A stretch of DNA of 64,000 nucleotides, from contig NZ_KQ130452.1 in the NCBI RefSeq assembly GCF_001046635.1, forward strand, positions 856,668-920,667. Direction: 5' to 3'. A program made the position numbers and the translations under genes. Below the pieces are notes generated by a model that was given only the letters and a program-made list of their open reading frames with translations, was not told where the DNA came from and ran no database searches. Of this stretch, positions 36,547 through 36,897 are shown piece by piece (position 1 is the stretch's first letter; each line of letters begins with the position of its first letter). This DNA is from Novosphingobium barchaimii LL02. GTDB taxonomy: Bacteria > Pseudomonadota > Alphaproteobacteria > Sphingomonadales > Sphingomonadaceae.

Positions 36547-36897
36547 GACCGCTCCGAATAAGAATAACTGTGGATAGGCCCCTAAAGTGAGTCATTCGGG
36601 ACTCTGCGTCAACCCGCGACTCGTGGAGATTCCTTATGATTCAGGTGTTCAGCGCGCGGAACAAAAGGAATCCGACACAACATGTCGAGTCAGGGTGAAT
36701 CATCCGGACTCAAGATGTGGTGGGTGTGGCCCTGACGACTCGTGGATAACTTTTTGTCGATTCGCCACGGCTGATGACACCACCAGTTGCGTTTTACGCA
36801 ACTTCAATCGACTTGGTTGCATTTGCAGCAAGTGTCCTGACAATCCAGATAGAGCGCAATGCTGCGATGCAGCAATCCTCTCTTCTCAAGGTCTGCC
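36547..36897. promoter_or_regulatory. ccrM upstream region with a GANTC cluster and DnaA-like boxes
   Basis: Eleven GANTC sites start at 36589, 36600, 36618, 36628, 36638, 36668, 36687, 36697, 36707, 36737 and 36759. TGTGGATAG (36569-36577) and CGTGGATAA (36741-36749) each match the DnaA box in eight of nine bases. GACTCGTGGA occurs twice (36618, 36737). GTTGCGT-TTT-ACGCAAC at about 36786-36802 is a perfect hairpin. No gene fits before the small frame at 36898. Likely the methylation-sensitive control region of ccrM. Confidence 0.7.

Follow-up and report, generated by a model that had tools for sequence, protein, structure and literature searches.

The window analyzed here is a 64-kb stretch of the Novosphingobium barchaimii LL02 genome, and all positions are counted from its first nucleotide. 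The region of interest lies between two genes that run in the same direction.

35413..36546, minus strand: ccrM, GANTC adenine methyltransferase of 377 aa (open reading frame; Pfam N6_N4_Mtase 6.5e-66, RAMA 1.1e-21)
37063..37698, minus strand: rnhB (RNase HII), next gene upstream, co-directional with ccrM (Pfam RNase_HII 1.2e-37)

A preliminary description of this DNA had reported eleven GANTC sites in 175 bp upstream of ccrM, and on recounting, every start position given was exact. As ccrM runs on the minus strand, with its start at 36546, the cluster lies directly upstream of it, and the closest GANTC is 43 bp before the start codon. Fewer than one site per 175 bp had been expected by chance, which agrees with our counts; the true background is even lower. 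The window holds 93 GANTC where dinucleotide shuffles predict 284, so the background assumed previously was too high, and the 82 sites in the remaining 63.8 kb correspond to ~0.22 expected per 175 bp. The densest 200 bp is the cluster itself with 11 sites, compared with at most 3 in any 200 bp elsewhere in the window, and the densest 200 bp of the Markov-shuffled window (n = 100) never held more than 7. We also examined twenty 20-kb stretches, picked from two further Novosphingobium genomes so as to include ccrM; there, the ccrM upstream regions gave the top two 200-bp densities (9 and 7 GANTC), followed by 4. The eleven sites are also helically phased (R = 0.87, period 9.9 bp), which 0 of 2000 random placements matched in a test that was run post hoc, with the spacing already seen. 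A plasmid search using the cluster sequence returned no match.

Two minor features were seen in the same window. A short open reading frame at 36859-37059 (plus strand; 66 aa, or 53 aa from 36898) lies between rnhB and the cluster, antisense to both genes, and its 53-aa form has no Pfam match. ARAGORN called a tRNA-Gly of 98 bases at 22449-22546 (plus strand), antisense within the long open reading frame 21044-22642; this call is probably a false positive.

Counting GANTC upstream of ccrM in relatives, as had been proposed, showed that the cluster is conserved. We found 3-10 sites between -300 and +60 of the ccrM match start in 80 of 80 Sphingomonadales loci, these being the best 80 of at least 591 relatives found and not all relatives. 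In 78 of the same best 80, the ccrM upstream region is the densest 200 bp of the locus. The spacings between adjacent sites are mostly ~10, 20, or 30 bp, and 216 of 421 lie no more than 1.5 bp from a multiple of 10.5 (fraction expected 0.29). Since all 80 loci share a GANTC cluster, it is not peculiar to LL02. The closest relative among the matches listed is a Novosphingobium with 94% CcrM identity. From the aligned sequences, the cluster is modular, with a pair of sites at a predicted promoter, a variable middle array, and a distal pair of putative operator boxes.

This organization bears on the earlier suggestion that the cluster is a sink, or decoy, that titrates CcrM. Eleven sites at high density would suit such a role, but many relatives have only 3-5, and the eight nrdR-less genomes described below retain few. 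The sites are, moreover, modular, phased, and at fixed places in the boxes and promoter, and a few sites among thousands per genome would be expected to titrate little enzyme. The sink was thus not borne out, and we consider it extremely unlikely.

Closest to ccrM is the promoter module, which contains the following features.

36607..36612, minus strand: predicted -35, TTGACG (sequence, alignment to relatives, motif count)
36600..36604, no strand: GANTC 2, within the predicted promoter spacer (TTGAC..GANTC..GANTC pattern in relatives)
36589..36593, no strand: GANTC 1, touching the predicted -10 (site scan, alignment)
36584..36589, minus strand: predicted weak -10, CACTTT, 17 bp from the -35 (sequence and alignment; CACCCT in many relatives)

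The proposed ccrM promoter is based on conservation, and its -35, -10, and start site are predictions; an automatic sigma70 consensus scan called no promoter upstream of ccrM. Shuffles predict 0.05 Sphingomonadales loci with TTGAC followed by GANTC and by a second GANTC at the -10 place; 57 of the 81 examined have this arrangement, as do 31 of 68 loci from other Alphaproteobacteria. Work by Haakonsen in 2015 reportedly described GANTC in the spacer of sigma70 promoters assisted by GcrA. The LL02 arrangement is of this type, with one GANTC between the predicted -35 and -10 (36600) and the second touching the -10 (36589). The preliminary description named GcrA as the likely partner, and GcrA is encoded in 12 of 12 relatives searched. 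The Caulobacter GcrA motif is named as YGAKTCG in the available text of PMC7987155. Only the sites at 36618, 36737, and 36759 fit it, and the plus-strand contexts of the two promoter sites, GGACTCT and TGAGTCA, do not. GcrA is therefore a plausible partner, with 3 of 11 sites fitting the motif and none of these in the promoter.

The idea of a methylation sensor fared similarly. Two GANTC do lie in or at the edge of the conserved predicted promoter; a single, uniform sensor, possibly graded as had been suggested, is not supported by sites that are arranged in modules. In its pure form, CcrM autoregulation would make the whole array a methylation sensor and nothing else, read by GcrA or RNA polymerase. 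In its favor are the class-wide promoter pair, the presence of GcrA throughout the relatives searched, and the fact that 61 of 68 other alphaproteobacterial ccrM loci carry one or more GANTC upstream of the gene. However, pure autoregulation leaves unexplained the 16-bp boxes described below, their 32-33 bp spacing, their match to the nrdA boxes, and their absence together with nrdR, and for a version acting via GcrA, YGAKTCG fits neither promoter site. We regard it as unlikely.

Between the promoter and the distal module lies the middle array, and two DnaA-box-like sequences were found at the two edges of the cluster.

36618..36642, no strand: middle array, GANTC 3, 4, and 5 (36618, 36628, 36638) in 10-bp steps (alignment)
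36569..36577, minus strand: DnaA-box-like CTATCCACA, 1 mismatch, near the predicted transcription start (motif scan)
36741..36749, minus strand: DnaA-box-like TTATCCACG, 1 mismatch, beside GANTC 10 (motif scan)

The middle array varies, with three sites in loci L002, L007, and L010 and two in L001, L003, and L004. A perfect CtrA half-site, TTAACCAT, occurs upstream of ccrM in 31 of 81 loci (0.2 expected), and in many of these other loci, it occupies the stretch where the LL02 window has its three extra GANTC. It is absent from the LL02 ccrM upstream region, where the best version has 2 mismatches. Of the 81 loci, 42 have a perfect DnaA 9-mer in the ccrM upstream region (0.1 expected), and in 26 of the 42 it lies 28-29 bp past the TTGAC start; the LL02 window has one-mismatch versions only. 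The DnaA and CtrA motifs, as well as the parS 16-mer and NrdR consensus used below, were all supplied as general consensus sequences. A comparison published in 2010 predicted that DnaA controls ccrM chiefly where CtrA sites are absent, and tallied GANTC upstream of cell-cycle genes, drawing no conclusion from the tally in the text available (PMC2877005).

DnaA-like boxes at both edges and dense methylation sites could also be the marks of a chromosomal replication origin. The origin of E. coli, oriC, is GATC-rich. In relative G006, whose assembly is a single contig, we sampled forty 20-kb stretches (0.8 of 2.94 Mb). There, cumulative GC skew peaks near 0.8 Mb and is lowest near 2.2 Mb, with ccrM at 1.41 Mb, and the sole parS 16-mer seen was in the stretch at 2.25 Mb. 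As the skew turning point and parS lie elsewhere in the sampled G006 DNA, we rejected an origin at ccrM, to which we assign hardly any probability.

The distal module contains the remaining six GANTC sites and two 16-bp palindromes.

36668..36672, no strand: GANTC 6, promoter-side flank of box O2 (site scan, alignment)
36675..36690, minus strand: NrdR-like box O2, ACTCGACATGTTGTGT in the ccrM direction (consensus score, nrdA matrix)
36687..36691, no strand: GANTC 7, fused to the O2 inner edge; the conserved C of this box doubles as the last base of the GANTC, read in the ccrM direction
36697..36701, no strand: GANTC 8, between O1 and O2 (site scan)
36707..36711, no strand: GANTC 9, fused to the O1 inner edge; the conserved G of this box doubles as the first base of the GANTC, read in the ccrM direction
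36708..36723, minus strand: NrdR-like box O1, CCACCACATCTTGAGT in the ccrM direction, 17-bp spacer to O2 (consensus score, nrdA matrix)
36737..36741, no strand: GANTC 10, flank of O1, fits YGAKTCG (site scan, alignment)
36759..36763, no strand: GANTC 11, outermost, fits YGAKTCG (site scan)

NrdR is an ATP/dATP-loaded repressor of ribonucleotide reductase genes. Alignment of the loci revealed two facing copies of C.A.AT.T.G upstream of ccrM, each with GANTC at its inner edge, and we take this motif to be the NrdR box. A box pair scoring at least 28 on the NrdR consensus is present in 77 of 81 loci, with starts 31-34 bp apart and mostly 32-33 bp. The spacer is 15-17 bp in 75 of the 77 pairs and 18 bp in the other 2 (range searched 15-18 bp). 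The conserved C and G are each present in 77 of 77 O1 boxes, and in O2, the C is present in 76 and the G in 75 of 77, a conservation that is partly built in as the selecting score weights those positions. Three nrdR-bearing Sphingomonas loci (L061, L074, L076) scored 25-27, under the cut-off of 28, and the nrdA matrix described below finds all three. Only 3 box pairs reached a score of 30 in the 1.2 Mb of genome DNA sampled, and two of these are at ccrM. With the O2 consensus, 12 relatives were found to contain nine exact matches, all of which have coordinates at ccrM. Allowing one mismatch added 11 more, most of them elsewhere, a level near that of the reversed-pattern control (9 in total).

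NrdR is described as binding a pair of 16-bp palindromes with conserved GC pairs; each box is sharply kinked, and two nucleotides, such as ATP and dATP, are needed (available text of PMC12051234, PMC9110341, and PMC12176259). Spacers of 15-16 bp are typical, with binding at 14-17 bp (PMC12051234, available text). In LL02, both boxes are upstream of the predicted start site, the nearer by ~105 bp and the farther by ~138 bp. Two further conserved blocks stand beside the boxes (window region 36650-36735), GTTC after O2 and, beyond O1, GCCACACC. In six Sphingomonas loci (L051, L052, L053, L064, L071, L075), a perfect DnaA box is inside this upstream module and not near the start site; in several of the six, it falls between the two NrdR-like box positions.

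Because the region contains inverted repeats, we considered whether the boxes form an RNA hairpin in the leader. The boxes are upstream of the predicted promoter, however, and pairing between O1 and O2 (782) was below the partner-shuffled mean (797, sd 9), with no covariation. The O1-O2 hairpin was rejected and has almost no probability in our view. An Rfam search covering 36400-37150 found nothing at gathering score, and its two hits scored far lower.

The box pair was also compared with the reductase gene nrdA. In 11 of 11 nrdR-bearing genomes, a pair with the boxes 31-34 bp apart was found upstream of nrdA, at a score reached by 0.3-2.7% of shuffles. A matrix was then built from these nrdA boxes alone, which had initially been chosen by the NrdR consensus. 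It detects a pair upstream of ccrM, again mostly 32-33 bp apart, at 80 of the 81 loci (at most 5 of 100 shuffles). The sole locus missed, L040, belongs to isolate genome G008, where no nrdR was detected.

nrdR was found in 11 of 12 relatives and, in further sets, matched in 30 of 33 (29 over the cut-off; L023 was left out of the nrdR search) and 31 of 34. No match was obtained in 15 of 298 genomes of the family, among which nrdA is full in nine, partial in G364, and undetected in five. Eight of the nine with full nrdA (G008, G226, G238, G315, G320, G372, G420, G489) are without boxes at both ccrM and nrdA. The GCCACACC and GTTC blocks are missing together with the boxes in these eight, and the operator-linked GANTC group is gone, but the ccrM promoter with its GANTC pair is retained in all of them. 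The ninth, G244, has boxes at both genes, and therefore its nrdR is probably just absent from the assembly. The five genomes with neither nrdA nor nrdR detected (G170, G298, G312, G331, G387) have ccrM boxes, and their assemblies look incomplete.

Across 91 genomes, with L022 and L040 removed as duplicates of L218 and L221, the raw counts are 8 with neither nrdR nor box, 12 with a box and no nrdR, 3 with nrdR and a low box score, and 68 with both. G364 is outside both this count and the filtered one, as it has no full CcrM match and its nrdA is partial. A full nrdR match is lacking in 20 of the 91, and 12 of these 20 still have ccrM boxes. Seven of the 12 are titled MAG (nrdR undetected in 6, a fragment in 1; nrdA not searched in 6 of the 7). 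Four of the other five are also without detectable nrdA, and the fifth is G244. Filtering out doubtful assemblies dropped eleven rows (five with nrdR and nrdA both missing, five with nrdA not searched, one with an nrdR fragment) and left counts of 8, 1, 3, and 68, respectively. In a quick CcrM tree, the eight box-less genomes separate into a clade of six rows (SH-aLRT 100) and another of two (SH-aLRT 99), which we read as two independent losses. In an independent-pairs test, the filtered rows yielded 2 pairs on supported branches, of which 1.0 went the same way and 1.0 showed no difference; with all rows, there were 6 pairs (same way 0.4, opposite way 0.1, no difference 5.5). With two independent losses only, the pairs are too few, and the tree test alone shows nothing. 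Loci L219-L223 and L225-L227 make up two clades without detectable nrdR and without an nrdA box pair.

Joint absence could also arise if the boxes bind another factor that was lost alongside NrdR. The GCCACACC and GTTC blocks have no assigned factor and are missing where the boxes are missing. However, nrdA in the same genomes has similar boxes at almost identical spacing, and these are missing along with the ccrM boxes; we consider another factor very unlikely.

The GANTC sites of the distal module are fused to the boxes themselves. In the 77 pairs, GANTC is fused to both inner edges in 52, to O2 only in 14, to O1 only in 10, and to neither in 1. At the nrdA boxes of nrdR-bearing genomes, GANTC overlaps 3 of 22, so the fusion appears to be a trait of ccrM more than of NrdR boxes generally. 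Since the conserved C of O2 or G of O1 belongs to a GANTC, one methylated adenine would adjoin the key base pair. Inverting such conserved pairs reduced Streptomyces NrdR binding ~50-60 fold (PMC9110341, available text). Methylation may therefore alter NrdR binding at the ccrM boxes. Cited work suggests that, in Acinetobacter, NrdR filaments are influenced by a DNA adenine methylase (PMC12176259, available text), an unrelated but suggestive hint for the ccrM case.

Taken as a whole, we interpret the cluster as a composite ccrM control region, in which a distal tandem NrdR operator is combined with a proximal sigma70 promoter and ccrM is a probable NrdR target (roughly 80% probability, judged from sequence). 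What the sequence comparison itself establishes are the modules, the paired boxes, their fusion to GANTC, and their loss together with nrdR. The methylation-sensor interpretation looks partly right, and it seems to miss what is apparently the main part, the NrdR operator. We propose that the dNTP state would set NrdR occupancy of the ccrM box pair, with NrdR loaded with ATP and dATP. Passage of the fork would leave all sites hemimethylated until CcrM is made, and binding of NrdR and of RNA polymerase or GcrA would change. With methyl groups on the edge that NrdR contacts, occupancy would depend on both dNTP and methylation state. The promoter GANTC pair could be a second readout of methylation, by GcrA or the polymerase, and newly made CcrM would restore full methylation of the region, closing the loop. 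NrdR may either repress or activate ccrM, as the boxes are far upstream of the predicted start.

Rodionov and Gelfand reportedly described NrdR operators of ribonucleotide reductase genes in 2005, and at reductase promoters, the boxes often overlap the start site. The ccrM region resembles these operators in having two 16-bp boxes about three helical turns apart, each with a conserved C and G ten positions apart, and in occurring in genomes with nrdR and being missing in eight without it. Unlike them, its target would be a DNA methylase gene, its boxes are far upstream of the predicted promoter, and GANTC is fused to the boxes, as is rare at nrdA. As in Caulobacter GcrA/sigma70 promoters, GANTC is in the predicted promoter spacer and GcrA is present in relatives, but the LL02 promoter sites are without the YGAKTCG context, and an upstream NrdR-like module is added.

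Autoregulation of Caulobacter ccrM was reportedly found by Stephens in 1995. GANTC at the ccrM promoter, as a likely means of feedback, is common to both species. LL02 has eleven sites, in contrast to the two that the preliminary description gave for Caulobacter, and an NrdR-like operator, with none described for Caulobacter in the available text of the literature examined. To our knowledge, little is known about the timing of CcrM synthesis outside Caulobacter. Methylation is said most probably to affect ccrM itself (PMC3973325, available text).

NrdR of P. aeruginosa acts on topA, beyond the reductase genes, and an nrdR mutant has lower topA expression (PMC4409342, available text). This is similar to the ccrM case in that NrdR acts on a DNA-metabolism gene outside the reductases. 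However, topA has one box, and no methylation sites are described in that text (PMC4409342). We found no report of NrdR control of ccrM in the available text of the literature on NrdR with CcrM, Alphaproteobacteria, or Sphingomonadales, and an earlier database prediction is possible. The NrdR literature for Sphingomonadales does not include ccrM in the main text available, and among the matches listed from a wider search, one mentions ccrM a single time. Searches for GANTC at an alphaproteobacterial ccrM promoter found no literature, and among the matches listed for Sphingomonas CcrM, GANTC, or methylomes, none is on the ccrM promoter by its title or the start of its abstract. If true, NrdR control through a conserved ccrM operator would link DNA methylation to dNTP supply and extend NrdR beyond ribonucleotide reductases in Alphaproteobacteria. 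It would also help explain why GANTC sites cluster, as parts of a two-input switch responding to dATP and hemimethylation.

Furthermore, we scored 68 ccrM upstream regions from other Alphaproteobacteria, 28 of a first 30 plus 40 more, after excluding L081 and L082 as Sphingomonadales (L082 by its CcrM identity). This sample was not a random draw; it comprises the top-scoring loci from the 117 genomes, out of 142, that gave a match. A single box with a score of at least 17 was found in 25 regions (0.58 expected) and of at least 19 in 7 (0.00 in shuffles), and a pair of at least 30 in 25 (0.12 expected), although some of these non-Sphingomonadales boxes fall in the last rnhB codons, where shuffles are a weak control. 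Because NrdR-like boxes are at ccrM in 25 of 68 other alphaproteobacterial loci, the NrdR-ccrM link may be old, and the GANTC-fused form may be a later elaboration. More tentatively, and with somewhat under even odds, CcrM methylation might directly gate NrdR, with NrdR-ccrM being an ancestral alphaproteobacterial link of dNTPs, fork, and methylation, and the GANTC-fused boxes its most elaborate form.

In L093, L096, L104, L105, and similar loci, the NrdR-like palindromes overlap the apparent last rnhB codons (PIHKIL-like, by eye). A DNA-level signal may therefore shape the C terminus of the protein.
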